Of a DNA stretch of 33,311 nucleotides, positions 5,626-24,951 are shown piece after piece; position 1 is the stretch's first letter; every line of letters starts with the position of its first letter. Both the position numbers and the translations under genes were made by a program. This stretch comes from an uncultured Clostridia bacterium (lineage in GTDB: Bacteria > Bacillota > Clostridia > Oscillospirales > Oscillospiraceae): positions 1 to 33,311 of the forward strand of contig CAMNHH010000003.1 of NCBI GenBank assembly GCA_946539175.1, read 5' to 3'. Under the pieces are notes generated by a model. It saw only the letters and a program-made list of their open reading frames with translations, was not told the DNA's origin and did no database searches.

Positions 5626-5660
5626 TAAGAGAAGCGCAATTCCCTGTGAGGTACAGACTT

Positions 5661-8066
5661 ATGAAAAAAAAGATTCAATCCGCCCAGGCGCCGCTCCGCA
5701 GCCTGGCCCTTCCCGCCGGATTGCCGGAGGGCTTCGTTCCCACCCCGCCCCAGGGGCTCAGCGCCGCCGAGGCCGCCGCCAGAGCGGAGGCCGGACAGGC
5801 CAACCGACAGAGCGCCGAGCCGGGCAAATCCGTGGCCCAGATTGTAGGAGAAAATCTCTTTACCCTCTTCAATCTGCTGAACTTCGCCCTGGCCCTCTGC
5901 CTGGCCCTGGTGGGTTCCTGGCGGAACATGCTGTTTTTGGGAGTCGTCTTTTCCAACACCCTCATCGGCACGGTACAGTCCCTGCGGGCCCGCGCCATGC
6001 TGAATAAGCTGCGGCTGCTGCAGGAGAAGCCCTGCCACCCCATCCGGGACGGGCAGGAGCAGGACTGCCCCCCCGCGGAGCTGGTGCTGGGCGACCTGGC
6101 GGTATTCCGGGCAGGCGATCAGCTGCCGGCGGACGCCATCGTCCGGGAAGGCAGCTGCGCCGCCGACGAATCCCTGCTGACCGGCGAGAGCGATCCGATC
6201 CCCCGGAGCGCGGGAGATTGGCTCATGTCCGGCTCCTTCCTGACGGAGGGCAAGGTCACGGCCCAGCTTGCCGCCGTAGGCGACGACAGCTACGCCGCCC
6301 GGCTCATGGGGGACGCCCGGCAGATCCGCTCTCCAAAGTCGGAGCTGATGACGGATCTGAATCAGCTGGTGCGCTGGATCAGCCGCCTGCTGGTGCCCAT
6401 TGGGCTGCTGCTCTTCCTGCGGGAGGTTCTGACCCGCTCCGTGCCGGTAAAGGAGGCTGTGCCCGGTGTGGTGGCCGCCATGATCGGCATGATCCCGGAG
6501 GGTCTGATCCTGCTGACCTCCGTGGCCCTGATGGCCGGTGTGGTGAAGCTGGGCCGCCGGAAGACCCTGGTGCAGGAGCTCTTCGGCATTGAGACCCTGG
6601 CCCGCACCGACGTGCTGTGCCTGGACAAGACCGGCACTCTGACCACCGGTGAGATGAGCCTGGAGAAGGCCATCCCGATGGAAGTCTCCGAGGAAGCGCT
6701 GCAAAGAGCCGTGGGCCGCTTTTTGGGGGCCTTTGAGGCCGGCTCCGGCACCCTGCGGGCCCTGGCCCAGGCCTTCCCCGCCGCCTCGGAGCAGCCGGTA
6801 TCCACCCTTCCCTTCTCCTCCGCCCGCAAAAAATCCGCCGCCGCCTTCTCCGACGGGACCGTGCTGATCCTGGGGGCGCCCTCCTTTGTACTGAAGGCCG
6901 TGCCGCCCCAGGCGGAGACCTGGGCCGCGGAGGGCTTCCGGGTGCTGGCCCTGGCCCAGGCCAGGGGTGCCCTGGAGGGAGACAAGCTGCCGCCGGTGGA
7001 GAAGCTTCTGGGCCTGTTTCTGCTGCGGGATACCCTGCGGCCCGCCGCCTCCGACACCCTCCGCTGGTTCCGGGAGCAGGGCGTGCAGGTGAAGATCATG
7101 TCCGGCGACGATCCCCGCACCGTGGCCGCGGTGGCCCGGCGGCTGGGTCTGCAGGACGCGGACAAGGCCGTGGACTGCGGCGCGCTGACGGACCAGGAGC
7201 TGGCCGAGGCCAGGGACCAGGTGATCTTCGGGCGGCTGACTCCAGACCGGAAGCGGCTGCTGGTGGGGGCCTTCAAGGCCGACGGCCACACCGTGGCCAT
7301 GACCGGCGACGGTGTCAACGACATTCCGGCGCTCAAGGCCTCCGACTGCTCCATCGCCATGGCGGGCGGCGCGGAGGCCACGGAGCACGCGGCCCAGCTG
7401 GTGCTGATGGACGGAGACTTCAACTCCCTGCCGGCGGTGGTGGCGGAGGGGCGACGGGTGATCGGCAATATCACCAGAACAGCCAGCCTGTTTTTGGTAA
7501 AAACGCTGTATTCCGCCGCTTTGGCGATTTTGACCCTGCTGCTGCCCCTGCGCTATCCCTTCCAGCCCATCCAGCTGACGCTGATTTCCGCCATTTCCAT
7601 CGGCATTCCCTCCTTCTTCCTGGCCCTGGAGCCCTCCAGTGAACGGGCCAGGGGCCGCTTCCTGCGGCGGGTGCTGCTGCGGGCGGCCCCCGGTGCGGCC
7701 GCTGTCACCGTCTGTGCCCTGGCCTCCCTGCTGGTGAGCCGCGGCGGCAGCTCCTTTGAGGCCGCCTCCACCATGGCCGCCATCGCCGCCGGGATCATCG
7801 GCCTGGCCAATCTGGTGCTCACCTGCCGTCCTCTGACCCGTCTGCGGGCTCTGCTCTGCGGCGTCATGGCGGCGGCCTTCGCCGGAGCGGTGCTGCTGGC
7901 GCCTAAGGTCTTCTTCCTGCAGACCGCCTCCCTCACGGGCCGGGAATGGGGGGAGCTGGCCGTTATCCTGGTCTGCGGCGTCGCCGTTCTGCTGCTGGGC
8001 TCGGCTCTGGCCCAGCGCAGGCAAAACGCCGACGAAAGCCGAGCGGAAGCGCACAAGGCAAATTGA
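5661..8066 (+). CDS. P-type cation-transporting ATPase (CtpE-like P2 group)
   Basis: 801 aa with all P-type ATPase elements in order: actuator loop TGES near residue 175, membrane helix 4 motif MIPEGLILL, phosphorylated Asp in DKTGTLT (about residue 322), a short nucleotide-binding domain, TGDGVNDIPALK near 548, then a C-terminal block of about six membrane helices. The PEGL helix, compact N-domain and lack of heavy-metal CPC or N-terminal CxxC motifs place it with P2-type Ca/Mg pumps, closest by memory to the CtpE group, for which Ca2+ uptake has been reported. Substrate is inferred only. GAGGT precedes the ATG at 5661; a GTG at 5646 is the alternative. The stop overlaps the -35 of the next promoter. 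Confidence 0.92.
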   Translation: MKKKIQSAQAPLRSLALPAGLPEGFVPTPPQGLSAAEAAARAEAGQANRQSAEPGKSVAQIVGENLFTLFNLLNFALALCLALVGSWRNMLFLGVVFSNTLIGTVQSLRARAMLNKLRLLQEKPCHPIRDGQEQDCPPAELVLGDLAVFRAGDQLPADAIVREGSCAADESLLTGESDPIPRSAGDWLMSGSFLTEGKVTAQLAAVGDDSYAARLMGDARQIRSPKSELMTDLNQLVRWISRLLVPIGLLLFLREVLTRSVPVKEAVPGVVAAMIGMIPEGLILLTSVALMAGVVKLGRRKTLVQELFGIETLARTDVLCLDKTGTLTTGEMSLEKAIPMEVSEEALQRAVGRFLGAFEAGSGTLRALAQAFPAASEQPVSTLPFSSARKKSAAAFSDGTVLILGAPSFVLKAVPPQAETWAAEGFRVLALAQARGALEGDKLPPVEKLLGLFLLRDTLRPAASDTLRWFREQGVQVKIMSGDDPRTVAAVARRLGLQDADKAVDCGALTDQELAEARDQVIFGRLTPDRKRLLVGAFKADGHTVAMTGDGVNDIPALKASDCSIAMAGGAEATEHAAQLVLMDGDFNSLPAVVAEGRRVIGNITRTASLFLVKTLYSAALAILTLLLPLRYPFQPIQLTLISAISIGIPSFFLALEPSSERARGRFLRRVLLRAAPGAAAVTVCALASLLVSRGGSSFEAASTMAAIAAGIIGLANLVLTCRPLTRLRALLCGVMAAAFAGAVLLAPKVFFLQTASLTGREWGELAVILVCGVAVLLLGSALAQRRQNADESRAEAHKAN

Positions 8067-8091
8067 CAAATCCCCCGATCTGTGATATGAT
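8063..8091 (+). promoter_or_regulatory. Near-consensus sigma-A promoter of the ABC-RsbU-RsbW unit
   Basis: TTGACA (8063-8068), exactly 17 bases, TATGAT (8086-8091). Its -35 begins within the stop codon region of the ATPase gene. It is one of the strongest promoter matches in the window and lies inside a long inverted repeat, so it is presumably held in check by a DNA-binding protein. Confidence 0.85.
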
Positions 8092-8117
8092 TTGCTATAT
8101 CACAGATTGGGGGATTT
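8068..8117. promoter_or_regulatory. Long inverted repeat overlapping the promoter, probable operator
   Basis: Arms of 21 bases (8068-8088 and 8097-8117) match at 20 positions around an 8-base centre; the core is ATCTGTGATAT-N8-ATATCACAGAT. The left arm covers the spacer and most of the -10; the right arm covers the expected transcription start (about 8098). Because transcription would start inside the repeat, the RNA could not form the full hairpin, which favours a DNA-level operator for a dimeric regulator. No regulator of a recognisable DNA-binding family is encoded in the window. Confidence 0.75.
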
Positions 8118-8122
8118 TGACG

Positions 8123-9874
8123 ATGGAGCACAAACCCCTGTTTGCCAAACTGAAGATGATTTTTCCCAGGAAGGAGCGGCGCTATTTCGTTCTGCTCTTT
8201 TTTCTCATTCTGATCGGCACGGCCTTCGACTTTCTGGGCGTTTCCCTGATTCTGCCGCTGGTGAATCTGCTGATCGCCCCGGAGCAGCTCTCCGGCAGGA
8301 GCTGGTACAGGCTGCTGACCCGGATCGTCCCCGTGGAGGATCCCAACAGCCTGCTGCTGGTGCTGGTGCTGCTGATCATCGCCGTGTACGTGCTGAAAAA
8401 CCTGTATGCCATCTATATGTCCGTGGTCCAGGGGGTCTTCCTGGCCCGGAACCAGGTCAACACCTCCGCCAAGCTGCTGGACTGCTTCATGCGAAAGCCC
8501 TACAGCTTCCATCTGCAGCACAACTCCGCTGAGGTGATCCGTTCCATCAACAACGATGTTTCCAGCGCCTACGACATCGTCTCCAGCATCATCGGGCTGG
8601 TGACCCGGGGGCTCATCACCCTGCTTCTGATCGCCTATCTGATCCTGGTGGATTTCTGGCTGACGGTCTCCATCGTGCTGGGGCTTGGGCTCTATTCGCT
8701 GGTCTACTTCCTGCTGGTGCGGAAGAAGCTGAAGGCCTCCGGCGAGGAATCCAGAGAGGTCTCCGTTCGCATGATCAAGGCCATCGTCCAGTCCGTGGGC
8801 GGCATCAAGGAGGTCAAGGTCATGGGGCGGGAGCGCTATTTCGTGGACAGCTACGCCAAAAACGGCGACGCCTTCGTCCGCATCCGCCGCCGCATGGCCG
8901 TTCTGGCCGGCGTGCCGCCCCGCCTGCTGGAGATCCTCTGCGTCTCCGGGGTGCTGGGGCTGGTGGCCGTGAAGATCGCCCTGCGGCAGGATCTGAGCTC
9001 TGTGATGGGCAGCCTCTCCGCCTTTGCGGTGGCCGCCATCAAGCTGATGCCCAGCGCCAAGTCCATCAACAGCACCATCAATAACATTTCCTACCGGATG
9101 CCTGGGCTCAACGCCGTGTGCGAGCTGATCGACGACAATTGGGGCACGGACATCGGCCAGGCCAAAATCAGCAGCCGGGACCGGATCCGAAGCCGTCAGG
9201 CCAAGCTGGCGGATATCCGGGTGGAGCGGCTCAGCTTCACCTACCCGGAGAGCGACACGCCGGTGCTGCGGGACGTGGATCTCACCATCAAGGCAGGAAG
9301 CAGCGTGGGCATCGTGGGCGTCACAGGCGCCGGCAAGACCACTCTGGTGGATCTGATCCTGGGGCTGCTGGAGCCCCAGCAGGGCCGCATCCTCTACGAC
9401 GGCAGGGATATCCGGGCGGACTACGCCGACTGGCAGTCCCGCATCGGCTATATTCCCCAGAACATCTATCTCACCGACGAGACCATCCGGGCCAACGTGG
9501 CCCTGGGCATTCCCGAGGAGGAGATCGACGATCGGCAGGTCTGGAAGGCGCTGGACGACGCCCAGCTGGGGGACTTCGTCCGGGGGCTCAAGAACGGCCT
9601 GGATACCAAAATCGGTGAGATGGGCGTCCGCATCTCCGGCGGCCAGCGGCAGCGGATCGGCATCGCCCGGGCCCTGTACTACGACCCGGACATTCTCTTC
9701 CTGGACGAGGCTACGGCGGCCCTGGACAGCGCCACGGAGCAGGCCGTCATGGCCTCTGTCAAGGCTCTGAGCCGGGAAAAGACCTGCATCATCATTGCCC
9801 ACCGACTCAGCACCATTGAGCACTGCGACGAGCTCTACCAGGTCCGGGAGGGCCGGGTGGAACGGCAGCGCTGA
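8123..9874 (+). CDS. ABC exporter, fused membrane and ATPase domains (MsbA/HlyB type)
   Basis: 583 aa. The first 320 residues hold about six membrane helices (the first is FVLLFFLILIGTAFDFLGVS); the C-terminal 230 residues form the ATPase domain with Walker A GVTGAGKTT near 400, Q-loop YIPQNIYL, signature ISGGQRQRIGIARAL near 503, Walker B ILFLDEATAALD near 523 and H-loop IIAHRLSTI near 557. It has no N-terminal C39 peptidase domain. As a half-transporter it should act as a homodimer, exporting a lipid, glycan or peptide. The downstream phosphatase/kinase pair follows without a terminator or promoter, so the three are probably co-transcribed. With the NRPS genes 7 kb away, export of the NRPS product is possible but unproven. 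The start at 8123 follows a G-rich site; the track start would run into the ATPase gene. Confidence 0.92.
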   Translation: MEHKPLFAKLKMIFPRKERRYFVLLFFLILIGTAFDFLGVSLILPLVNLLIAPEQLSGRSWYRLLTRIVPVEDPNSLLLVLVLLIIAVYVLKNLYAIYMSVVQGVFLARNQVNTSAKLLDCFMRKPYSFHLQHNSAEVIRSINNDVSSAYDIVSSIIGLVTRGLITLLLIAYLILVDFWLTVSIVLGLGLYSLVYFLLVRKKLKASGEESREVSVRMIKAIVQSVGGIKEVKVMGRERYFVDSYAKNGDAFVRIRRRMAVLAGVPPRLLEILCVSGVLGLVAVKIALRQDLSSVMGSLSAFAVAAIKLMPSAKSINSTINNISYRMPGLNAVCELIDDNWGTDIGQAKISSRDRIRSRQAKLADIRVERLSFTYPESDTPVLRDVDLTIKAGSSVGIVGVTGAGKTTLVDLILGLLEPQQGRILYDGRDIRADYADWQSRIGYIPQNIYLTDETIRANVALGIPEEEIDDRQVWKALDDAQLGDFVRGLKNGLDTKIGEMGVRISGGQRQRIGIARALYYDPDILFLDEATAALDSATEQAVMASVKALSREKTCIIIAHRLSTIEHCDELYQVREGRVERQR

Positions 9875-9936: not shown

Positions 9937-11697
9937 ATGCCCAAAAAATCCGTTTCGGAAATGAACGCCCTGGAGCAGCTCCACTACAGTCTGAAGGGAA
10001 AGACCTTCCGGGCCATCATTCTCTTTGCCACGATCATCAGCGTGGCAGCCATTGCCTTCGGCTTCTGCCTCTACTCCGCCACCGTGCGGCGGGAATACCG
10101 CACCCGGACCTGGCAGATGTCCCACACCGCCGTGGAGCTGCTGGACACGGAGCTGCTCTGCCGACAGGCCGCCCAGGTGGCGGAGGTCTACGACGCCATG
10201 AGCGAAGCGGAGCGGGCGCAGCTGCAGGACAAGACCTCTCCCCTGCTCGCCTGCTTCGACGCGGTGCGGGGGCCGGAATTCGACCAGGTCGCCCGGATGC
10301 TGCGGCAGATTCAGGAGAACAACGGCGGCAAGGCCGCCTTCACCGCCCTGCTGGATCCCTCCTCCAACCGACGGATCTTCGTGGTGGACTCCGACCCCAA
10401 CGACAGCTTCTGCCCTCCCGGCAGCCTGGACGACATGGGCGAGGACGTGATCTCAGATCTGATCAACGGCAAGGCCGAGCTGCTGGATCAGTTCTACGGC
10501 CTGGGTCCCATCAGCGCCACGCTGATCGACATGGAGCCCTACGGCTATCGCTGCATGGCGGGTACTCAGGTGGCTTATGTGGGGAGCTATCCGGTTTTCG
10601 TTTTCTTTGACACAGATATGAACCAGGCTGCCAGCACCAGCCGCAGCTTCTTCTGGCAGTACGTGGGGCTGATGGCCTTCATCACCCTGATTGTGCTGAT
10701 TCTCGCCATCCACCACATGAAGCGCACCACCGTGGCCCCCATCAACGCCCTGGCCGCGGCGGCGGAGGCCTACATCGCGGACCGGACAGACGAGCACCGG
10801 GACAACGCCCATTTCGCCAAGCTCAACATCCGCACCGGCGACGAGATAGAAAAGCTGAGCGTGGTTATGAAGGCCATGGAGGCCGATCTGGCGGACTACG
10901 TGCAGAATCTCACCCGCATCACCGCGGAAAAGGAGCGCATCAGCACGGAGCTGTCCCTGGCCACCAAGATCCAGGCCGCCATGATGCCACATATCTTCCC
11001 GCCCTTCCCGGGCCGGGACGAGATCGACATCTACGCCAGCATGGACCCGGCCAAGGAAGTGGGCGGCGACTTCTACGACTTCTTCCTGGTGGACGAGGAC
11101 CATCTCTGCGTGGTGATGGCGGACGTTTCCGGCAAGGGCGTCCCGGCGGCCCTCTTTATGATGGCCTCCAAGATCATCCTCCAGAGCTGCGCCATGCTGG
11201 GCCAGTCCCCCGCCGAGATCCTCACCAAGACCAACCAGGCCATTTGCTCCAACAACCAGGAGGAGATGTTCGTCACTGCCTGGGTGGGCATTCTGGAGCT
11301 GTCCACCGGCATTCTGACCGCCGCCAACGCGGGCCATGAGTACCCGGTGCTGACCCGGCAGCCCGGCGGCGCCTTCTCCCTCTACAAGGACCCCCACGGC
11401 TTCGTGATCGGCGGCCTGGACGGGGTGAAGTACCGGGAATACCAGTTGCAGCTGCAGCCCGGCGCCAAGCTTTTCCTTTACACCGACGGCGTCCCGGAGG
11501 CCACCGACCGGAACAACGCCCTCTTCGGCACGGATCGGATGCTGGAGGCCCTGAACACCGTTCGGGAGGGAGATCCCAGGCAGCTGCTGCAGACCGTGCG
11601 GGCCGCGGTGGACAAGTTCGTGCAGGAGGCGGAGCAATTCGACGATCTGACCATGCTCTGTCTGGAATACAAAAAGCGGAAGGAAGAGCAGCCATGA
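9937..11697 (+). CDS. Membrane-bound PP2C-family Ser/Thr phosphatase with sensor and HAMP (RsbU/SpoIIE-like)
   Basis: 586 aa: membrane helix at about 27-48, an extracytoplasmic region of about 185 residues (unrecognised, PDC-like by position), a second helix near 238-258, a HAMP-like linker, then a PP2C_2 domain (about 345-580). The metal-binding acidic residues are present: KEVGGDFYDFF, ADVSGKGVPAALFM (about residue 396) and QFDDLTML at the end. Such proteins dephosphorylate STAS-domain anti-sigma antagonists in response to a signal. The next gene, an RsbW-like kinase, overlaps by ATGA, the classic partner-switch pairing. AAGGAGG lies eight bases before the ATG. No STAS gene is adjacent; the nearest is at 16791-17090. 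Confidence 0.92.
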   Translation: MPKKSVSEMNALEQLHYSLKGKTFRAIILFATIISVAAIAFGFCLYSATVRREYRTRTWQMSHTAVELLDTELLCRQAAQVAEVYDAMSEAERAQLQDKTSPLLACFDAVRGPEFDQVARMLRQIQENNGGKAAFTALLDPSSNRRIFVVDSDPNDSFCPPGSLDDMGEDVISDLINGKAELLDQFYGLGPISATLIDMEPYGYRCMAGTQVAYVGSYPVFVFFDTDMNQAASTSRSFFWQYVGLMAFITLIVLILAIHHMKRTTVAPINALAAAAEAYIADRTDEHRDNAHFAKLNIRTGDEIEKLSVVMKAMEADLADYVQNLTRITAEKERISTELSLATKIQAAMMPHIFPPFPGRDEIDIYASMDPAKEVGGDFYDFFLVDEDHLCVVMADVSGKGVPAALFMMASKIILQSCAMLGQSPAEILTKTNQAICSNNQEEMFVTAWVGILELSTGILTAANAGHEYPVLTRQPGGAFSLYKDPHGFVIGGLDGVKYREYQLQLQPGAKLFLYTDGVPEATDRNNALFGTDRMLEALNTVREGDPRQLLQTVRAAVDKFVQEAEQFDDLTMLCLEYKKRKEEQP

Positions 11698-12101
11698 AGG
11701 AATTGAATCTGGAAGCCACGCTGCAAAACATCCCCCGGGTCACAGAGTTCGTGGACGCTCAGCTGGAGGCGCTGGACTGCCCCCCGAAGGCCCAGATGCA
11801 GCTCGACGTGGCAATCGACGAGCTGTTCAGCAACATCTCCCGCTATGCCTACGATCCCACCACCGGCCCCGCCACGGTCCGGGTGGAGGTGGAGCGGGAG
11901 CCCCTGGCTGTGATCATCACCTTCATCGATCACGGCAAGCCCTACGATCCCCTCTCAGCCCGGGACCCGGACGTGAAGGCCGCCCTGAAGGACCGGCCCA
12001 TCGGCGGCCTGGGGGTCTTCCTGGTGAAGAAAACCATGGACGCGGTGCAGTACGAGTACCGGGAGGGCAAGAACATCCTGCGGATCAAGAAGCAGCTCTG
12101 A
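11694..12101 (+). CDS. RsbW-like serine-protein kinase / anti-sigma factor (HATPase_c_2)
   Basis: The 135-aa single-domain GHKL ATPase has the N-box DVAIDELFSNISRYAY, G1 DHGKPYDPL and G2 IGGLGVFLVKKTMD, closely following the RsbW/SpoIIAB family (the GLGVFLVKKTMD form is typical of clostridial members). Family members phosphorylate a STAS antagonist on Ser and sequester a sigma factor or another target. It overlaps the phosphatase gene by four bases (ATGA), implying coupled translation and near-equal amounts. There is no sigma factor gene in the window, so the output partner is unknown. Confidence 0.92.
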   Translation: MKELNLEATLQNIPRVTEFVDAQLEALDCPPKAQMQLDVAIDELFSNISRYAYDPTTGPATVRVEVEREPLAVIITFIDHGKPYDPLSARDPDVKAALKDRPIGGLGVFLVKKTMDAVQYEYREGKNILRIKKQL

Positions 12102-14688: not shown

Positions 14689-16794
14689 TCAGCGATTTCC
14701 CTCCGCCCCCACAGGCCGCAGCCTTTTCGTTACGGTAAGGCGGTTTCGGTCTCCCCGCCGGGTATAGCGCTGGCTGTCGGAGAGGCTGCGGACCAGCTGG
14801 ATGCCGAAGCCGCCCTCGGTTTCGGCCGGGACTGCCTCCGCGGGCCCGGTCAGAGGATCAAAGGGCAGGCCGTTGTCCTCGAAGCAGAGCTCCGCCTCCC
14901 CCTCCCGCAGCGCGAGACTGAGCCAGATCCTGGGCTCCCCCGTCCGGGGGAAGGCGTAGCTGATCTGGTTGTTCAGGATCTCGTCCAGGATGACGCCCAG
15001 CTCGGAAAGCTGCTCCGGGTCGAAGCCCTCCAGCTCCCCCAGCAGCGCGTCCGTCACCCCGGGAATGTCCGAGTAGGAGGGCGCTGTGAGCTCCAGGCGC
15101 TTTGTTTTGCCGAAGGAGAGCGCCAGCATGGTCACGTCGTCAAACTGCTCGGCGTCGCCGCAGAACTCGCACAGGGCCCGGTAGAGCGTCCGGGTGGGAT
15201 CCTCTCCCGCCTGCCGCAGGGCCTCCGCGATGCGCTGACAGCCGAAGGCCTCCTGGGCCTCGTTGATGCCCTCGCTGAGTCCGTCGGTGAACATCAGCAT
15301 CAGATCTTCCGGCTCCAGGCGCAGGGTCTCGGAGCGGAATTCCATGTCCTCAAAGACGCCAAGAATGGAATTGGACTCCTCGCTGAGCCGGATCACCTCG
15401 TCGCCCCGCCGCAGCAGAGGCTGCTCATGGCCGGCCCGCAGGTAGGAGAGCTGCCCATCCCGGACGTCCAGCACCCCGAAGAAGGCGGTGATGAAGATGC
15501 TCTCCTCGTTGCCGGCGCAGAGCTGGTTGTTCAGCCGGAAGGCAAATTCATCCAGAGAGGAGGCGCTGTGGACCTCCGCCTTGATCAGCTCCATGGCCCG
15601 CATCATGAACAGAGACGCGGGCACCCCCTTGCCGGACACGTCCGCCAGGCAGAAGAAGATCCGGTCCTCGTCCAGGGGGAAATACTCATAGAGGTCGCCG
15701 CCCACCTCCCGGGCGGGCTTCAGGAAGCTGCGGAGCACCGCTGCCCCCTGCTGCAGCTGCGCCTTGGGCAGGGCCTCCAGCTGAATGCTGGCGGCCAGCT
15801 CCAGCTCCGCCTTCATCTTTTCCTCCTGGGCGGTTTTCTCCGCCAGGCTGCTCAGATAGCCCAGGATGGCCCCCTGCATCAGATCGAAGGCCTCGGAGAG
15901 CTCCCCGATCTCGTCTCCGGAGCGGATCTCCGCAGAGACCTGCTCCGGGCTCCCCCCGTGGATCTCAGAGCTGAAGCGCCGGGAGGCGGCTGTCAGCTTC
16001 TTCACGTTCCGCACGATGAGCCGATCCGCGAAGAACAGGGTGAAGACCCCGATGATCAGCGTAGCCCCCAGGAGAATGCCCAGGGTGTAGAGGGAGAAGA
16101 GCCGGACGCTGCGGCTCAGATCCATGCTCCGCTTGCCGAAGCGCACGAACACGTCCCCGGTCCCCGTCACAGGCGCCAGGGCCATGCAGCTGCCGTCCTT
16201 GACGTAGGAGACGGCGCTGCCGCTCTCCAGCGCCCCGGCCAGGATCTCGTCCTGGGGCTTGCTCACGCTGGCGGGAAAGCTGTAGCGCATGGAGCTCTCG
16301 GGCATACGGTCAATCAGATAGACCAGGTTGCCGTGCTCCCCGTCGTAGAAGAACAGGGACGCCGCGTCCAGGCCTCCGGCAAAGGAGAGCATGTCCATCT
16401 CATTGGCCAGCGCCTCATACTCCAGCTTGAACGCCAGCATTTCGTAGGACATGCCAAAGCCCTGCTTGGGCGGAAAAATGTCCGCCGTAAGGGCCTCGTA
16501 GAAGGCTGCCCGCTTGTCATAGCTCTCGAACTCCGTGACGGCGGCCTGCTCCAGAAGCTCCCGGTTTTCCCCGTAGATGGCGCCGATCTTGCTTCGGACG
16601 TCCCGGATGAAGTCCCAATGGGCGTCGGTGATGCTGCCCACCAGGGTATCCGCCGTCTCGGCGCAGAGCTCCCTTTCGTTCCGCTCCAGAGAGTCCCGGT
16701 AGAGCCGGGAGGAGATCAGCACGGAGGAGACGATCAGCGCCAGGGACAGCAGGGCGATCAGCAGCAGCAGCTTGCCCCGGATGCCGGATCTCAT
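14689..16794 (-). CDS. Sensor PP2C phosphatase fused to an RsbW-like ATPase domain
   Basis: 701 aa in five parts: membrane helix (about 8-28), extracytoplasmic sensor (about 30-230, unrecognised), second helix (about 232-254) with HAMP and coiled coil, PP2C_2 domain (about 345-560: AREVGGDLYEYF, ADVSGKGVPASLFM, QFDDVTMLAL), and a C-terminal HATPase_c_2 domain (about 575-695: N-box LDEILNNQISYAF, G1 EDNGLPFDPL, G2 GGFGIQLV). The polypeptide thus carries both the phosphatase and the kinase/anti-sigma half of a partner switch. Its start overlaps the STAS gene by ATGA, so antagonist and regulator are co-translated, and both lie downstream of the NRPS. The other phosphatase at 9937 has the same front half but a separate kinase gene. 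Confidence 0.93.
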   Translation of the reverse strand: MRSGIRGKLLLLIALLSLALIVSSVLISSRLYRDSLERNERELCAETADTLVGSITDAHWDFIRDVRSKIGAIYGENRELLEQAAVTEFESYDKRAAFYEALTADIFPPKQGFGMSYEMLAFKLEYEALANEMDMLSFAGGLDAASLFFYDGEHGNLVYLIDRMPESSMRYSFPASVSKPQDEILAGALESGSAVSYVKDGSCMALAPVTGTGDVFVRFGKRSMDLSRSVRLFSLYTLGILLGATLIIGVFTLFFADRLIVRNVKKLTAASRRFSSEIHGGSPEQVSAEIRSGDEIGELSEAFDLMQGAILGYLSSLAEKTAQEEKMKAELELAASIQLEALPKAQLQQGAAVLRSFLKPAREVGGDLYEYFPLDEDRIFFCLADVSGKGVPASLFMMRAMELIKAEVHSASSLDEFAFRLNNQLCAGNEESIFITAFFGVLDVRDGQLSYLRAGHEQPLLRRGDEVIRLSEESNSILGVFEDMEFRSETLRLEPEDLMLMFTDGLSEGINEAQEAFGCQRIAEALRQAGEDPTRTLYRALCEFCGDAEQFDDVTMLALSFGKTKRLELTAPSYSDIPGVTDALLGELEGFDPEQLSELGVILDEILNNQISYAFPRTGEPRIWLSLALREGEAELCFEDNGLPFDPLTGPAEAVPAETEGGFGIQLVRSLSDSQRYTRRGDRNRLTVTKRLRPVGAEGNR

Positions 16795-17116: not shown

Positions 17117-20100
17117 TTACATGTCGTCACGGTCAAAGAAGCCCAGGGAATCCAGGGATTCGATGATCCGAAGCAGATAGTCGCTGTCGGTGATGGGCCA
17201 TTTGTAGCCCAGGCGGTACAGGGCCTTGACGGAGAAGCGGTTGTCGCTGCGGATCTCCCGGCGCTGGCGGCCGTCGCTGCTGGAATAGGTCAGCAGGCCC
17301 GAGACCAGCATGCCGCGGCTTTCGTCCGCAATGGCCTCGTTGAGTCTGGCCCGGAAGGCCTCGTCCCGCAGGATCTCGATCCGGAAGCCATAGCGGTTCA
17401 TGGTCTCGATCACGTCGCCCATCTGGACCTCGTGGGCGTTGGCACAGTGGAAGAGGGTGAACTTCCGGTTGGTCAGAGACAGGCGCATGACGCACTCGGC
17501 CACCTCGTCGATGGGAGAGAAGTCCACGGTCTCGTCGCAGGCGGAGACGGGGAAGCAGCCCAGCACCCGGTAGGCCTTCAGACTGCGGATGAAGCTGTTG
17601 GTGACAGAGTTGATCTGGAACTCGCCGTCGGACTGGCGGCCCATCAGATTGCCCACCCGGATGATCTTGGCGTCCAGGCCGCCGTCGATGGCCTCCAGCA
17701 CGGCCCGCTCCGCCATGAACTTGGAGTGGACGTACTTGTTGGAGATGTCCTGGCCGAAGTCCAGGGCGTTCTCCGCCAGGCGGAAATCAGCGCCGATGGC
17801 GTTGTCCACGTCCTCGCCCGCCACGGAGAGGGTGGAGATCTGGATGAAGCGGGCGTTTCTGGCTTTGGACAGGGCAAGCAGGTTCTTCACGCCCTCCACG
17901 TTGATCCGCTCGATCACGTCGTCCTTGGCGAAGTGCTTGACGCAGGCGGCGCAGTTGATGACCGTGTCGATCCGCTCGCCGGCCAGCAGCTCCTCCAGGC
18001 CCGGCGAGGTGATATCCGCGTCGAAGACCTTCACCAGCCGGGAGATTTCGCTCTCCAGGGGGGAGTCGAAGTAGTAGGCCATCATGGCCCGCAGGCGGGT
18101 GTTCTGGTCCAGCTCTCCCGCCCGGCAGAGGGCCGCCACGGGGATCTCCCGCTCCAGCAGCTTTTTCAGCACGTGGGAGCCCAGGAAGCCGGTGGCGCCC
18201 GCCAGCAGCACCCGGCCCAGGGGCCGCTGCTCAGCGATCTCGTCCACGTATTCCGGCACGTTGTTCCGAAGGGCGTTCTCATGGACCTCCCAGCTCTCCT
18301 GCTTTACGGCGGCAGGGGCCGCAGACTCCGACACGGCCCCCAGGTGCTTTGCCATCTGCTCGGCGGTGGGGAACTCGAACACGTCCTTGTAGGCGATGGA
18401 AAGGTTCATGGACAGGGCCAGCATGGCCACCTTGGAGGCGGACAGCGAGGTGCCGCCGTTTTCAAAGAAGTCCTCGTCCACGCCCATGTCCCTGTGGCCC
18501 AGGGACTTGGCGAAGATGGACACGATCTTCCGCTCCAGCTCGTTCCGGGGCCGCTTCACCTCCCGCTGGACGCTCTCGGTGACGGGCTCCGGCAGGGCCT
18601 TCTTGTCGATCTTGCCGTTCTTGTTCATGGGGATGGAATCCAGCTGCATGTAGACGGAGGGCACCATGTATTTGGCCAGACTCTTGCTGATATGGGCCTT
18701 CAGCGCCGCCGCGTCCACCTTCTCGCTGGCGGTGAAGTAGGCGCACAGGAACTGGCCCTCCCGCTCGGACTCCTTCACCAGCACCAGGCTGCGGAGCAGA
18801 GCGGGGTAGGTATTCATCACGTTCTCGATCTCGTCCAGCTCGATCCGCAGGCCCCGGAGCTTCACCTGATTGTCCATGCGGCCCATGAAGAGGATGCGTC
18901 CGTCCTCGCTCCAGCGGGACAGATCGCCGCTGCGGTAGGCGGGCAGGCCCTCAAAGGAGATATACTTCTCCCTGTTCATCCCGTCCAGCTTCACGTAGCC
19001 CCGACCCACGTTGTCGCCGCAGAGGATCAGCTCGCCGGGCACGTAGGGCGGCAGCTCGTTGTCAAATTTGTCGAAGATGGCCAGCTTGGTGTTGCCCACA
19101 GGGCCGCCGATGGTGATGTTGTCGTCCTTCACGTTGTCCACCGTGATGAAGATGGTGGTCTCGGTGGGGCCGTAGCCGTTGAGGATCCGGGCGTTGATGC
19201 CCAGAGCCCGCATTCTGCGGTAGAGGGGGGCGGGCAGCGCCTCGCCGCCCAGCAGCAGGGACTTCATGCTCTTCAGCGCCTTCACCGCGTCGGGGAAATC
19301 CAGCAGATTGTTGGCGTAGGAGGGGGAGAAGAAGCTGGCCTCCACGTGGTTCTCCAGGATCAGTCTGGCCAGCAGATTGGGGTTGTGGATTTCCTCCTCC
19401 GTGGCGATCACCACGGTCTTGCCCCCGTAGAGGCCCGTGGTATGCTCCATGACGGACACGTCGAAGGTCAGCGCCGCGAAGCTCATGGTGACGCTGACGT
19501 CCTTCAGATGCTCGGTGGCGTAGCGGTTATAGGGGTTCTCGGTGACGAAGTTCACCAGGGAGTGGTGCTCGATCATAACGCCCTTGGGCTTGCCGGTGGA
19601 GCCGGAGGTATAGAGGCAGTAGGCCAGGTTATGGGGCGTAAGCGCGGGCTCCGGGTTGCCGATCTCATTGCTTTGGATCAGCTCCTCGATCACCATCACC
19701 CGCAGGCCGCAGGTCCTGAACAGCTCCGCCCGCTCCCGGGCCAGCTGGGCGGTGGTCACCAGCAGCCTGGCCTCAGAGTTCTCGATGATGTACTGCACCC
19801 GGTCGTCGGGGTAGTCCGGGGCCAGCATCAAAAAGCCGCCGCCGGATTTCAGAATGCCCTCCCGCCCGGCGTAGGCCCAGACCGTTCTGGGCACCATCAG
19901 GCCCACCATATCGTCGGGCCGGACCCCCTCCCGCATCAGGGCGTGGGCGATGCGATTGGCGTGTTGGTTCAGCTCCCGATACGTCAGCCGCTCGCCCTGG
20001 GCGATGACGGCGATCCGGTCCGGGTGGCGCTCCACCTCCGCCTCAAAGATCCTGTTCACCGTGGTCTCCGGCACGGGGCCCTCGGTGGCGTTGAAGCCCT

Positions 20101-23100
20101 TGATCCGCTCCTTGACCGGGGCGGGCAGAATGCTGACCTGCTTCACCAGCTCCCTGACCATCAGCTCCCGGGCCGCCTGCTCAAAGTAGGCGGCAAAGGC
20201 CCGGATGAAGGCCTCGGAGTACAGATCGCTGCGGTACTCGAAGCGGAAGTCCGCCCCGCTCCCCTTCCGGAAGATGAAGAAGGAGATGGGAGCCATGGAG
20301 TCGCTTACGTCCAGGGGGAAGCATTCTGCGGGCTCGCCGCCGATCTGATCGAAGTTGAAGTATTCGCCCTGGTAGACGAACATATAATCCATGGGAATCT
20401 CGCAGGCTCTGGCGATCTCCCCGAAGGAGTAAATATCGTGGCTCATGCTGTCGATGAGCTGCTCGCCCAGCCGGGCGATGAGGGTCTTCACCGGCAGGTC
20501 CCCCTGAAGCTGCTGGTAGACCGGCAGCGTCTTGACCAGCATGGTGACGGCCCGGGACAGGCGAGGATCGTTTCTGCCGCTGTAGACGGTGGTGTAAAGG
20601 GCCTCGTTCTTGAAGCTGTACTTGCTCACCAGCAGGACGAAGGCCGCGTTGCAGAAGGCGTTGACCGACACCCGGTTCTTCCTGCAGAAGGCCTCGATCC
20701 GGTCAAAGTCCAGACCGGAGGGCAGGGTCAGAAGACCTGTGGCGGGCTTGGCCCCGTGGACGTCCTTGGGCGGCAGGAAGTCGTGCTCCGCCCCCTCCAG
20801 CAGGCCATGGTAATAGCGCTTCGCCTGCTCGTATTTCTCGCTCTGCCGGGCCTTCTTCTCATCCAGGGCGGCCTCGAAGCCCGTGTACCGTTCCGGCTCC
20901 GGGGCGGCGCCGGCGTAGGCGGCGTTGACGTCCTCGATGAGCACCGCCAGGCTGGTGCCGTCACAGATGATGTGGTGGATATCCAGGAACAGATAGTTCC
21001 CCTGCCCGGTCTTGTAGATCTGCATCCGGTACAGTCTGCCGCCGAAGAGCTCGAAGGGAGTGACCAGCCGCTCCGGCAGCCGCTCCGTCTCGAAGCGTTC
21101 CACCACCGGCAGCTTGGGATCGTCCCGGCAGACCCGGATCTCCCCGTCCTCCTGGACAAAGAGCTTGATCTTCAGGTAGGGATGGGCGTTGACGGTCGCC
21201 TCCAGAGCCGCCTGCAGTCGGTCCAGATCCACCCGCTCCGAGAGCTTGAACAGGTAGGGGATATTGTAAACAGTGGACTCCGGCTTGGACAGACTCTCCA
21301 CAAGGATGCCGTTCTGGGTCTCCGTCAGCGGATAGTCGGAGAGGATCTCATAGCGCTCCGCCTGCTCGCTGCCCTGGATGAATGCCTCCAGGGCCTCCAC
21401 GGTGCTGTTGGCCTTCAGATCCGCGATGGTGAACACCACGTCGAATTCCTTGGACAGCAGCACGTTGAGCTTGATGGCACCGATGGAGGAAAGGCCCGCG
21501 GCAAAGATATCGGTGGTGACGCCGAAGCGCTCGGAGCCGATGGCGTCGGCCACGCAGGCGAAGATCCGGCGCTGGATCTCGTTCTTCGGGCGCACCAGCT
21601 CCTCCGCCTTGCGCTGGGGCACAGGCAGGGCCCGCTTGTTGACCTTCTGGTTCTGATTCAGGGGGATACGCTCGATCTGCATGGTCACAGCGGGCACCAT
21701 GTAGGGGGGCTTGTTCGCCAGAATGAAGGCGTTCAGTGCGTCGACGTCCACGGTCCGGTCGGAGACCACGTAGGCCGCGATGAACTTGCCGCCGCCCTGC
21801 TGGTCGAAGGCCTGGACGGTGGCGTCCCGGATGCCCTCGAATTTGCGGATGATGCCCTCCACCTCGCTGAGCTCTATGCGGAAGCCCCGGATCTTCACCT
21901 GGCCGTCGCTGCGGCCGATGAAGTCCACCACGCCGCCGGGCAGCATCCGCACCAGATCCCCGGTGCGGTATACGTGCCGGTACGCGGGATCGTCCTCGAA
22001 GGGATTCTCAAGAAAGGCCTTGGCGGTCTGCTCCGGGCGATTGAGATAGCCCCGGCCCACCTGCGGACCGGCGCAGAGCAGCTCGCCGGGCACGCCCACC
22101 GGGACGCGCCGCAGCTGCTTGTCCACCACGTACTGCCGCAGATTGTTCAGGGCCGGACCCAGAGGGACCCGCTCATAGAGCCGGTCCACCGGGAAGTGGT
22201 TGACAAAAACGGTGCATTCCGTGGGGCCGTAGACGTTGTAGAGCTTGTAGGTCCGGGGCGGCTCCACAGGCACCAGCCGCTCCCCGCCCACGGAGAGCTG
22301 CTTGGGGTACTCCGCGTCGGGGAACAGCTCGGCGTACTGCCGTCCCACCTGGGTGGTCATGAAGCTGTGGGTGATGCGGTTTTCCTGGAAATATGCCCGG
22401 ATGGCCAGCATATCCAGGCGGATCTCCTCCTGGATGATATGCAGCTCCGAGCCTGCCGTCAGAGTGGGCCAGGTGTCCATCATATTGGCGTCGAAGCCGA
22501 AGCTGGCATAAGCCGCCGCCCGGCTGTCGGAATCCAGTCGGTAGAAATCCCGGAACCAGCCGCAGAAGGCCGCCAGGTTCCCCCGCTCCAGAATGACGCC
22601 CTTGGGCACGCCGGTGGAGCCGGAGGTATAGAGCATGATAAAGCGCTGATCCGGGCTGAAGTCGGCGGGCAGCGCATCCGCCGGGGGCAGGTCGGGAATT
22701 TCGTCGGTATAGAGCACGGGGCCGGCGTAGCCGGGGACCCGGTCCATGAGGCCCCGATCCGCGATCAGGTACTTTGCCTCCGCGTCCCGGATCATGAACT
22801 CCAGCCGCTCGGGGGGATAGCTGGGGTCCAGGGGCTGATAGGCCGCGCCGGACTTCAGCACGCCCAGCGGGGTCACAGCCATGCTGGCGCAGCGGGGGAT
22901 CAGAATGGAGACCACATCCTCCGGTCCGATGCCCTTGTCCCGCAGGAAGGCCGCCAGGGTGTCGCTGAGGCGGTCCAGCTCCCGGTAGCTGAGCCGGGTC
23001 GCGCCGCAGACCACAGCGGTATGCTCGGGCTGCCGGGAGGCCTGCCTCCGGAACAGCTCCACCACGTCGCTCCGGTCCAGTTCCTTTTCGTTCCGGTTGG

Positions 23101-24346
23101 CGGCGTCCAGCTCCGCCAGCTGCTCCCGGGTCAGAAGATCGATCTGACCCAGCCGCTCCACGGCGGGCAGCTCCAGCAGAATCTTTTCATAGCTCTCCTG
23201 CATGGAGCGAACCACCGCGTCGTTGTACCGGTCCATGGCGTAGTCCGCCCGGAAGCTGACCCGGTCCCCGTCCCGCCAGACGGTAAAGGCGAAGTCCTCC
23301 GGGGCGTCCAGCTCCGTGCAGGCTTCCGGAACCTGCTTCAGTCCGCAGAAGCTGAGCTCCGACAGCAGGTCGCCCTGGTAGGCGAAGATCACCTTGGGCC
23401 GCAGCTCCGTCTCGGCGCAGAAATCCGCGAAGGAATAGAGGCTGTTGGCCCGGCTGGCCCCGATCTGCCCGTCCAGCTCCCGCAGGAAGTCCCCGACGGG
23501 CGTTTCATCCCGGGGCTCGGCCAGCACCGGATAGGTTTTGACAAACATGCCCACGCTGTTGGCCAGGCGCTGATCTCTGCCGTGGAACACGGTGGCATAG
23601 ACCGGGGCTTCCCGGTCCGTGTGCCGGGCCAGAAGGACGGCGAAGGCCGCGTTGAAGACCGTGCTGAGCCGGACCCCGTTGCTGCGGGCATAGGCCCGCA
23701 GGGTCTCCGCACTGAGGCGCTCCGAGATCCGGGTCAGGGACTTGCGCTTGTGGGGTCTGGGATTGGCGTCCTGGTACAGCTCCGCAGCGGATTCCACCCC
23801 GTCGAAGCGCTTCAGGTAGTATTCCCGGGCCGCTTCATACGCCGGGGAGGCCAGGCGCTGCCGCTCCTCCAGGGCATAGTCGTTGGCGCTGAAGCGCTCC
23901 TCCTCCACGGGCAGGCCGTTGTAGGCGGCGTCGATCTGCCGCAGCAGCAGACGCAGGGAGCAGCCGTCGAAGACGATATGGTGGAAGTCCAGGAACAACC
24001 GCTTCTCTGCCGGACTCAGCAGAATGGCAAAGCGGTACAGGGGACCATGCTCCAGGTCGAAGGGCTTGACAAGCTCGCTGATTCGGAAGCTCCCGGCCTC
24101 CAGAATCGGGATCTCCGGCTCGCCGCCGCAGGCGTATTTGCAGAGCTCGCCCTTCTCATCCGTACCAAAGCGGGTATTCAGGTACGGGTGGGCTGCCAGG
24201 ACGCCGCGGATGGCGGCCTGCAGCCGCTTCGGGTCCAGGCTGTCCGGCAGCCGGAGGGTGAAGGGCTGGTTGAAGGCAGTGCCGGAGGCTGCCGTCCGGG
24301 CCGCGTAGATGCCGTATTCTGATTTGGAAAGCGGATAGCAATTCAT
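17117..24346 (-). CDS. Two-module nonribosomal peptide synthetase with terminal reductase, C-A-T-C-A-T-R
   Basis: 2409 aa. Domain order: condensation C1 (1-430, HHIVFDG at 122-128), adenylation A1 (440-930, YTSGSTGVPKG near 574, YGPTE near 704), carrier T1 (about 935-1000, GLSSIGA), condensation C2 (1005-1430, HHIICDG near 1125), adenylation A2 (1440-1940, YTSGSTGKPKG near 1578), carrier T2 (about 1945-2005, NGGTSLSA) and a thioester reductase (2040-2409: GATGFLG near 2050, ISTLSVAG, YVHSK near 2204). The reductase should release the dipeptidyl thioester as an aldehyde using NAD(P)H. A condensation domain before the first adenylation domain suggests an N-acyl starter. The architecture fits the gut-clostridial NRPS family known to make dipeptide aldehydes and pyrazinones. 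The ATG at 24346 has GGGGAGGT upstream; the PPTase precedes it by 23 bases and STAS/PP2C genes follow. Confidence 0.95.
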   Translation of the reverse strand: MNCYPLSKSEYGIYAARTAASGTAFNQPFTLRLPDSLDPKRLQAAIRGVLAAHPYLNTRFGTDEKGELCKYACGGEPEIPILEAGSFRISELVKPFDLEHGPLYRFAILLSPAEKRLFLDFHHIVFDGCSLRLLLRQIDAAYNGLPVEEERFSANDYALEERQRLASPAYEAAREYYLKRFDGVESAAELYQDANPRPHKRKSLTRISERLSAETLRAYARSNGVRLSTVFNAAFAVLLARHTDREAPVYATVFHGRDQRLANSVGMFVKTYPVLAEPRDETPVGDFLRELDGQIGASRANSLYSFADFCAETELRPKVIFAYQGDLLSELSFCGLKQVPEACTELDAPEDFAFTVWRDGDRVSFRADYAMDRYNDAVVRSMQESYEKILLELPAVERLGQIDLLTREQLAELDAANRNEKELDRSDVVELFRRQASRQPEHTAVVCGATRLSYRELDRLSDTLAAFLRDKGIGPEDVVSILIPRCASMAVTPLGVLKSGAAYQPLDPSYPPERLEFMIRDAEAKYLIADRGLMDRVPGYAGPVLYTDEIPDLPPADALPADFSPDQRFIMLYTSGSTGVPKGVILERGNLAAFCGWFRDFYRLDSDSRAAAYASFGFDANMMDTWPTLTAGSELHIIQEEIRLDMLAIRAYFQENRITHSFMTTQVGRQYAELFPDAEYPKQLSVGGERLVPVEPPRTYKLYNVYGPTECTVFVNHFPVDRLYERVPLGPALNNLRQYVVDKQLRRVPVGVPGELLCAGPQVGRGYLNRPEQTAKAFLENPFEDDPAYRHVYRTGDLVRMLPGGVVDFIGRSDGQVKIRGFRIELSEVEGIIRKFEGIRDATVQAFDQQGGGKFIAAYVVSDRTVDVDALNAFILANKPPYMVPAVTMQIERIPLNQNQKVNKRALPVPQRKAEELVRPKNEIQRRIFACVADAIGSERFGVTTDIFAAGLSSIGAIKLNVLLSKEFDVVFTIADLKANSTVEALEAFIQGSEQAERYEILSDYPLTETQNGILVESLSKPESTVYNIPYLFKLSERVDLDRLQAALEATVNAHPYLKIKLFVQEDGEIRVCRDDPKLPVVERFETERLPERLVTPFELFGGRLYRMQIYKTGQGNYLFLDIHHIICDGTSLAVLIEDVNAAYAGAAPEPERYTGFEAALDEKKARQSEKYEQAKRYYHGLLEGAEHDFLPPKDVHGAKPATGLLTLPSGLDFDRIEAFCRKNRVSVNAFCNAAFVLLVSKYSFKNEALYTTVYSGRNDPRLSRAVTMLVKTLPVYQQLQGDLPVKTLIARLGEQLIDSMSHDIYSFGEIARACEIPMDYMFVYQGEYFNFDQIGGEPAECFPLDVSDSMAPISFFIFRKGSGADFRFEYRSDLYSEAFIRAFAAYFEQAARELMVRELVKQVSILPAPVKERIKGFNATEGPVPETTVNRIFEAEVERHPDRIAVIAQGERLTYRELNQHANRIAHALMREGVRPDDMVGLMVPRTVWAYAGREGILKSGGGFLMLAPDYPDDRVQYIIENSEARLLVTTAQLARERAELFRTCGLRVMVIEELIQSNEIGNPEPALTPHNLAYCLYTSGSTGKPKGVMIEHHSLVNFVTENPYNRYATEHLKDVSVTMSFAALTFDVSVMEHTTGLYGGKTVVIATEEEIHNPNLLARLILENHVEASFFSPSYANNLLDFPDAVKALKSMKSLLLGGEALPAPLYRRMRALGINARILNGYGPTETTIFITVDNVKDDNITIGGPVGNTKLAIFDKFDNELPPYVPGELILCGDNVGRGYVKLDGMNREKYISFEGLPAYRSGDLSRWSEDGRILFMGRMDNQVKLRGLRIELDEIENVMNTYPALLRSLVLVKESEREGQFLCAYFTASEKVDAAALKAHISKSLAKYMVPSVYMQLDSIPMNKNGKIDKKALPEPVTESVQREVKRPRNELERKIVSIFAKSLGHRDMGVDEDFFENGGTSLSASKVAMLALSMNLSIAYKDVFEFPTAEQMAKHLGAVSESAAPAAVKQESWEVHENALRNNVPEYVDEIAEQRPLGRVLLAGATGFLGSHVLKKLLEREIPVAALCRAGELDQNTRLRAMMAYYFDSPLESEISRLVKVFDADITSPGLEELLAGERIDTVINCAACVKHFAKDDVIERINVEGVKNLLALSKARNARFIQISTLSVAGEDVDNAIGADFRLAENALDFGQDISNKYVHSKFMAERAVLEAIDGGLDAKIIRVGNLMGRQSDGEFQINSVTNSFIRSLKAYRVLGCFPVSACDETVDFSPIDEVAECVMRLSLTNRKFTLFHCANAHEVQMGDVIETMNRYGFRIEILRDEAFRARLNEAIADESRGMLVSGLLTYSSSDGRQRREIRSDNRFSVKALYRLGYKWPITDSDYLLRIIESLDSLGFFDRDDM

Positions 24347-24369
24347 ATGATACCTCCCCAAAAAATACT

Positions 24370-24951
24370 CTATGGCAGGACCACGGGCGACAGCTCGCCC
24401 GGATCTTCCTCGCCGCAAAGGCTCAGGGCGAAGCCCGCCCGGACCGTGCTTTTCACGAACAGGCCCTCCGGCCAGGGCGGGCCCAGGGCCGGGATCTGCT
24501 TCGGGTCCTCATAGCCCCCCAGGGCCTTGTAGAGGCTCTCCTTGCGGGTCCAGAGAATATGAAAGCGCTCCAGAGGCGCGGGCCGGATCCAGACCAGCTC
24601 CTCCGGCCTCAGGGCAGCCTCCGCCGCCGGAAGATTGTCCGGCTCCAGCCGCTCCAGGTCCACCCCCAGGCGTCCCCGGCCCAGGGCCAGTACGCAGCGG
24701 CCTCCGCTGTGGGAAAGGCTGAAGGAGGGGCCGCCCGGCAGAAAGGGCCTTCCCGCCGGGTCCAGGCACAGCTGCGCCTCGTCCTCCAGACCCAGGACCC
24801 GGTGAAGCAGGGCCCCGGCGGCCAGAATGGAGCGCCGATCCTCCAGCCGCAGGCAGCGCGCCGCCCGGGCCCAGCGTCTGGGAAAGCGGGCTTGGAGAAA
24901 GCGGCACTCCGCCGCGTCCAGATCCGCCGCGTCCAGTCTGTAAAGCTCCAC
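24370..24951 (-). CDS. Sfp-type 4'-phosphopantetheinyl transferase
   Basis: 193 aa. It has the Sfp/AcpT signature motifs: GRPFLPG, FSLSHSGG, the magnesium-binding LGVDLERL, and WTRKESLYKALGG. It transfers the phosphopantetheine arm from CoA to the Ser of carrier domains, here surely the two T domains of the NRPS encoded 23 bases downstream. The start codon is GTG at 24951 with AGGGA seven bases before it. It is the first gene of the operon, preceded by an extended -10 promoter. It is short compared with Sfp (about 224 aa) but keeps all the core motifs. Confidence 0.93.
   Translation of the reverse strand: MELYRLDAADLDAAECRFLQARFPRRWARAARCLRLEDRRSILAAGALLHRVLGLEDEAQLCLDPAGRPFLPGGPSFSLSHSGGRCVLALGRGRLGVDLERLEPDNLPAAEAALRPEELVWIRPAPLERFHILWTRKESLYKALGGYEDPKQIPALGPPWPEGLFVKSTVRAGFALSLCGEEDPGELSPVVLP

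Follow-up and report, generated by a model that had tools for sequence, protein, structure and literature searches.

Why should the promoter of an exporter gene lie buried in a long inverted repeat? The question is raised by the first 33,311 nucleotides (nt) of contig CAMNHH010000003.1 from an uncultured Clostridia bacterium of the Oscillospiraceae (hereafter the window, to whose whole length and forward strand coordinates refer unless another locus is named), in which a gene for an ABC exporter follows a co-directional P-type ATPase gene. A sequence-only reading of this DNA had pointed to a near-consensus promoter, TTGACA-N17-TATGAT, within an inverted repeat with 21-bp arms, and had taken the symmetry for the site of a dimeric regulator repressing the exporter together with the partner-switch genes behind it. 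The description of the site is accurate down to its coordinates (Table 1): the promoter spacer is 17 nt long (8069-8085), the arms are complementary at 20 of 21 positions (95%) with 8 nt between them, and only about 0.00015 such repeats (arms of 21 nt with 20 or more matches and a loop of up to 60 nt) would be expected by chance given the length and composition of the window. However, we think it likely that the repeat acts as RNA, namely as a read-through insulator in which a hairpin masks the Shine-Dalgarno (SD) sequence of a single-gene exporter.

The proposed mechanism depends on which polymerase reaches the site. One arriving from the upstream gene would transcribe both arms, and the resulting long read-through RNA would fold so that the SD is enclosed in a stem of 21 pairs and the exporter stays untranslated; the sole mismatch between the arms in DNA becomes a G·U pair once the site is RNA. 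A polymerase recruited by the nested promoter would instead start in the right arm, giving an RNA that lacks the left arm and in which the SD is free for translation, so that synthesis of the exporter would require its own promoter to fire, whichever gene precedes it. Entry of transcripts from upstream is likely because the stop codon of the ATPase gene overlaps the -35 hexamer, and this overlap leaves no room for a terminator between that gene and the promoter. The predicted fold of positions 8050-8140 has an energy of -39.1 kcal/mol (z = -6.7; 0 of 200 shuffles equally good), and the SD is wholly paired in the predicted fold of the read-through RNA. The computed cost of opening the SD is 19.3 kcal/mol in the read-through RNA versus 8.1 kcal/mol in the own-promoter RNA, and averages 4.6 kcal/mol when the spacer is shuffled. 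The sequence-only reading had tied an RNA hairpin to a transcription start upstream of the repeat: the hairpin is indeed the best reading, on read-through RNA, while the gene's own start is predicted, from the position of the -10, to fall within the right arm, where that reading had also placed it.

Evidence that pairing itself matters comes from the orthologs. The ABC gene is present in 12 of 23 genomes of the genus, comprising the window's own copy and eleven at 59-83% identity; nearly all the genomes compared are draft assemblies. A TTGAC promoter is found at 11 of these 12 loci, where 27-47 nt separate the end of the -10 from the start codon; L012 lacks such a promoter and was omitted from the context test below. 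Near-perfect stems occur in the window, L003, L004 and L006, with arm sequences that differ among them; those of L006, for example, are TTTCCCCCCTTGTATGGTAA and TTACCATACAAGGGGGGAA. Arm identity is just 52-62% in the comparisons L002/L003 and L004/L006 (33-67% over the outer 12 nt), with complementarity retained. Across the seven closest sequences, 10 of the 21 pairs are altered on both sides and 84% of the cells are paired. The covariation exceeds that of every shuffle (0 of 500 as high), and the number of pairs altered on both sides falls to 2-4 if the partner is slid by 1-3 columns. In this set the share of G·U is uninformative alone, amounting to 5 of about 26 non-Watson-Crick cells in a manual count. 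Such compensatory change between species, as read from the alignment, argues that the pairing is maintained by selection. Beyond the near-perfect stems, L009 has a 14-pair SD stem with three G·U pairs and no mismatch, closed by a much longer loop of about 30 nt as opposed to 8 nt in the window, and L011 has an SD-spacer stem of yet another form. By fold z-score, four ABC loci occupy ranks 1-4 in a set of 253 promoter-gene pairs.

These patterns bear on the operator explanation, in which a dimeric repressor would bind the symmetric site over the -10 and the start and shut the promoter. The dyad does cover both elements, as operators do, and joint changes in the two arms could also arise if a regulator and its site co-evolved. 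Nevertheless, it is the complementarity of the arms that is conserved and not their sequence, their spacing ranges from 8 to about 30 nt with no fixed distance between half-sites (from TGTGATA to TATCACA it is 9 or 10 nt even in close orthologs), and at all loci the end of the outer arm falls on the SD. Moreover, orthologs with a divergent upstream gene have lost the symmetry while keeping the promoter. The supposed core, TGTGATAT, which had suggested two protein contacts per arm, turns out to be a Gram-positive extended -10 (TRTGnTAnnnT) plus its own complement, and the same extended -10 is present at orthologous promoters of the sister genus, there without any symmetry. A search of the genome for the core, as the sequence-only reading had proposed, returned a single copy even with 3 mismatches allowed, hence neither many random copies nor a second site for a regulator. 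Further, no regulator gene is common to the ABC ortholog loci, in keeping with the earlier remark that none is encoded nearby. Two related possibilities were discarded: a CRP-like TGTGA...TCACA site, for which the spacing is far too large and the sequence unconserved, and an invertible promoter, as the repeat overlies the -10 instead of flanking the promoter.

A useful yardstick for what an operator looks like in this genus is provided by a BlaI-family gene (L187, L190-L193), which carries a palindrome with 21-bp arms, CCAGACGATTGTGATAGTCTA-N4-TAGACTATCACAATCGTCTGG, and the inner motif TTGTGATA, over a TTGACA promoter; it looks like an operator bound by BlaI. It shares with the ABC site a long inverted repeat, a TTGACA promoter, a position just before the start codon and an inner TGTGATA, and thereby lends the operator explanation some support. 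Unlike the ABC site, it has arms that are nearly constant in G001, G012, G005 and G020, its centre is fixed at 4 nt, it precedes a gene for a BlaI-type regulator, and the SD, as seen in G020, is not part of the arms. The contrast between ABC arms that vary yet pair and BlaI-family arms that stay constant is our main reason for preferring the RNA hairpin, and an operator at the ABC site appears unlikely.

If the hairpin insulates against read-through, its presence should depend on the upstream gene. The co-directional upstream neighbours are the P-type ATPase in the window, FtsX in L003, spoVAE in L004, L009, L010 and L011, and SpoIVA in L006, with spoVAE also upstream but more distant in L012 and L013. 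The divergent ones are ThrRS (L005, L008) and an amino-acid permease (L007). At most loci of the sister genus the neighbour is seemingly divergent (judging by its single Pfam hit, a DUF2953-like protein), and at L180 of that genus it is co-directional with a terminator-like hairpin in between; a strong SD hairpin was found at 0 of 8 sister-genus loci. Counting L013, where spoVAE lies about 270 nt before the -35, as distant, a strong hairpin occurs at 6 of the 7 loci that a co-directional gene abuts, as against 1 of the 12 whose upstream neighbour is divergent, lies farther off or is terminated (Fisher 0.0017, with strong defined as z <= -2.5, a cut-off picked after the values were seen). Within a seven-member clade, the spacer's own contribution is 11.6 to 15.4 kcal/mol at the four co-directional loci versus -0.8 to 2.5 kcal/mol at the three divergent ones, two of which are sisters. 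Two observations on the DNA 5' of the promoter may be recorded here. At L158 (~8676-8745) an FtsX-type gene has its final codons (DALKQETL-stop) twice in tandem just 5' of the ABC promoter, which looks as though the tail of a former neighbour had been carried along by the ABC gene. At L166 (~15918-16200) repeated GGGCCGATG...CATCGGCCC hairpin units lie between spoVAE and the ABC promoter, and the SD hairpin is absent there.

The proximity of the stem to the upstream gene also calls to mind an intrinsic terminator or attenuator of that gene that overlaps the next promoter by chance. A stable GC-closed stem directly after the upstream stop codon, followed by TTTT in the window, would be in line with this. 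However, of the other strong loci, L004 and L006 have no T-run after the stem and L003 has just TTT, the site is absent from the terminator-scan list, and the end of the stem keeps to the SD and not to the stop codon of the upstream gene, a codon whose distance 5' of the -35 ranges from 0 to about 60 nt. We therefore regard a terminator as very improbable, although partial termination could add to the insulation.

The same arrangement of promoter and SD emerged from the scans at a second gene, cbiM-like, whose orthologs are L196-L208. Here 9 of 12 orthologs within the genus show pairing between the -35/-10 spacer and the SD (z from -3.8 to -6.1). At 10 of the 12 loci cbiM is preceded on its own strand by a CsoR-like gene, and the hairpin occurs in 0 of the 2 that lack this gene. 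In eight sequences 96.3% of 136 pair cells are paired, and G·U accounts for 23 of the 28 non-Watson-Crick cells (manual count), because the SD side is nearly fixed while the spacer alternates between C and T. Changes on both sides are few (2 pairs), and thus the support derives from the wobble pattern and not from classical covariation. Judged from these sequences, this is the pattern expected of RNA pairing and neither of a DNA operator nor of template copying. Separately, a conserved CCCCCCGGGGGG-like palindrome is located directly 5' of the cbiM -35 (L126 ~8490-8505, minus strand; also L197-L208); lying 3' of the CsoR-like gene in 10 of 12 loci, it is possibly the operator of that regulator. 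Combining the ABC exporter and cbiM as independent cases, we advance as a tentative proposal, on balance rather less secure than a coin toss, that in this genus certain promoters evolve a -35/-10 spacer acting as an anti-Shine-Dalgarno strand once their gene has come to stand behind a co-directional neighbour, and lose it again where the neighbour is divergent. Such insulation against read-through would be reusable, would take the place of a terminator and would allow individual genes to change transcription unit.

The wobble pairs and the context together bear on a purely mutational origin, in which template switching (quasi-palindrome correction) would copy one arm onto the other with no selection for RNA structure. 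Such copying would yield several near-perfect palindromes with locus-specific arms, as are indeed seen. Yet it would make exact copies, whereas cbiM pairs mostly via G·U and L009 has three such pairs, and it should ignore the orientation of the neighbour, which the hairpin tracks. This origin consequently strikes us as improbable, more so than an operator.

Several points weigh against the insulator. The association with context represents few independent events among related loci and relies on a post hoc cut-off, and a rank test of the SD opening cost across 11 same-genus loci gives only p = 0.05-0.08. L010 abuts spoVAE yet is nearly without a hairpin, and L005 has a moderate one despite its divergent neighbour. 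In the window, the own-promoter RNA may itself partly pair the SD with CCCC in codons 4-6. Finally, varying ABC arms are also compatible with a regulator co-evolving with its own site.

Within the window's own genome the ABC site stands out. The scans for further cases covered 1.36 Mb of 2.1 Mb, about two thirds of this genome. Among 568 promoter-like sites (1.14 Mb) the ABC stem was the best by far, scoring 49 versus 32.5 for the best shuffled control. A third strong hairpin, at L140 ~4375, has a poor promoter match. An Rfam scan of the window matched no family.

Nested promoters of this kind have precedents. In phage T4, gene e, soc, gene 49 and I-TevI each have a promoter in the DNA encoding the 5' strand of an SD-masking hairpin, such that long transcripts are silent and short ones from the nested promoter are translated, with an effect of about 100-fold for gene e (PMC3014915, PMC2988022). 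The ABC promoter is likewise nested in the 5' strand of an SD-masking hairpin, known here from sequence. Unlike the T4 cases, which are phage genes with late promoters and constitute a timing device, the ABC gene is chromosomal with a housekeeping-type promoter, and the hairpin would give independence from the neighbour. Closer in taxonomy is sigG (spoIIIG) of Bacillus subtilis, for which a large leader hairpin has been proposed to block the spoIIGA-sigE read-through RNA; as at the ABC site, the hairpin is impossible in the own-promoter RNA, and the gene is a chromosomal one of a spore-forming Firmicute (PMC5942855). The differences are that sigG encodes a sporulation sigma factor behind a sigma-F/sigma-G promoter, while the gene here encodes an ABC exporter, has a vegetative-type promoter and occurs in a wide variety of gene neighbourhoods; its arms show covariation from species to species, and its stem decays if the neighbour is divergent. 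With the start where it is predicted, the ABC site has both hallmarks, an SD in the stem of the long RNA and an own promoter within its 5' strand, and by its anatomy it would work like sigG and T4 gene e.

A comparable logic operates in the fold-back inhibition of IS10 and IS50, where RNA of the terminal repeat masks the start site of the transposase, but only in transcripts that enter from outside the element. Unlike these elements, the ABC site has no transposase or element ends, and its gene is a transporter. What seems new here is a probable masking hairpin on a transporter gene, one whose presence appears to track the gene's neighbour.

Table 1. Features of the ABC exporter site in the window, and the second case from the same scans.
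Feature	Position	Strand	Remarks
P-type ATPase gene	5646-8066	+	upstream, co-directional; presumed source of read-through transcripts
-35 hexamer TTGACA	8063-8068	+	encloses stop codon TGA (8064-8066) of the P-type ATPase gene
Left arm of inverted repeat	8068-8088	+	approximately the -35/-10 spacer (bar its ends) plus first half of -10; SD region is its complement
Extended -10, TGTG-A-TATGAT (TRTGnTAnnnT)	8081-8091	+	hexamer TATGAT at 8086-8091; same element at orthologous promoters
Right arm of inverted repeat	8097-8117	+	own-promoter transcript predicted to begin here; holds the SD
Predicted transcription start	~8098 (+/- 1-2 nt)	+	within right arm; placed from the -10
SD GGGGGA of ABC gene	8109-8114	+	inside right arm; predicted to be buried in stem of read-through RNA
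ABC exporter gene	8123-9874	+	583 amino acids; ABC_membrane and ABC_tran domains
SpoIIE-type phosphatase gene	9937-11697	+	3' neighbour of ABC gene, in this window only
RsbW-type kinase gene	11694-12101	+	3' neighbour of ABC gene, in this window only
cbiM-like gene promoter/SD	contig C30, L126, 8425-8489	-	promoter-SD pairing ~8489-8430

Turning to the gene itself, the closest single-chain relative of the exporter is the PglK flippase, but membership in PglK was rejected as the protein stays under the cut-off of that family (NCBIfam). The joint unit of exporter and partner-switch genes assumed in the sequence-only reading does not hold up: SpoIIE or RsbW genes adjoin the ABC gene in 0 of the orthologs examined, several of which are on short contigs. 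By this comparison of loci the supposed ABC-RsbU-RsbW operon is not conserved, and the promoter travels with the ABC gene alone. In most ABC orthologs a terminator-like hairpin directly follows the stop codon; in the window this hairpin is missing and the SpoIIE gene begins 62 nt on. Adjacency of spoVAE and the ABC gene is seen in both clades, and hence the ancestral position of the latter was probably directly behind spoVAE. In the window a spoVAD-spoVAE pair is located at 655-2047, some 6 kb 5' of the ABC gene, an arrangement which suggests that the intervening genes entered between spoVAE and the ABC gene. Elsewhere in the window, an imperfect inverted repeat with 45-nt arms (84%) at 525-640 lies just 5' of the spoVAD start at 655. 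Further downstream, a 2433-residue nonribosomal peptide synthetase with two condensation domains, two AMP-binding domains and a terminal reductase-like domain is encoded on the minus strand (17117-24418), followed on the same strand by the gene for a SpoIIE-HATPase fusion protein (14689-16794).

At a general level, this locus cautions that a long palindrome over a promoter is not necessarily a repressor site; checks for pairing between spacer and SD and for covariation of the arms help to tell an operator from an RNA hairpin. If the insulator is real, the exporter gene would remain under its own control even when placed behind an unrelated gene, without recourse to a terminator, and the occurrence of the same gene in many contexts would constitute a natural series in which the gain and loss of insulation may be followed.
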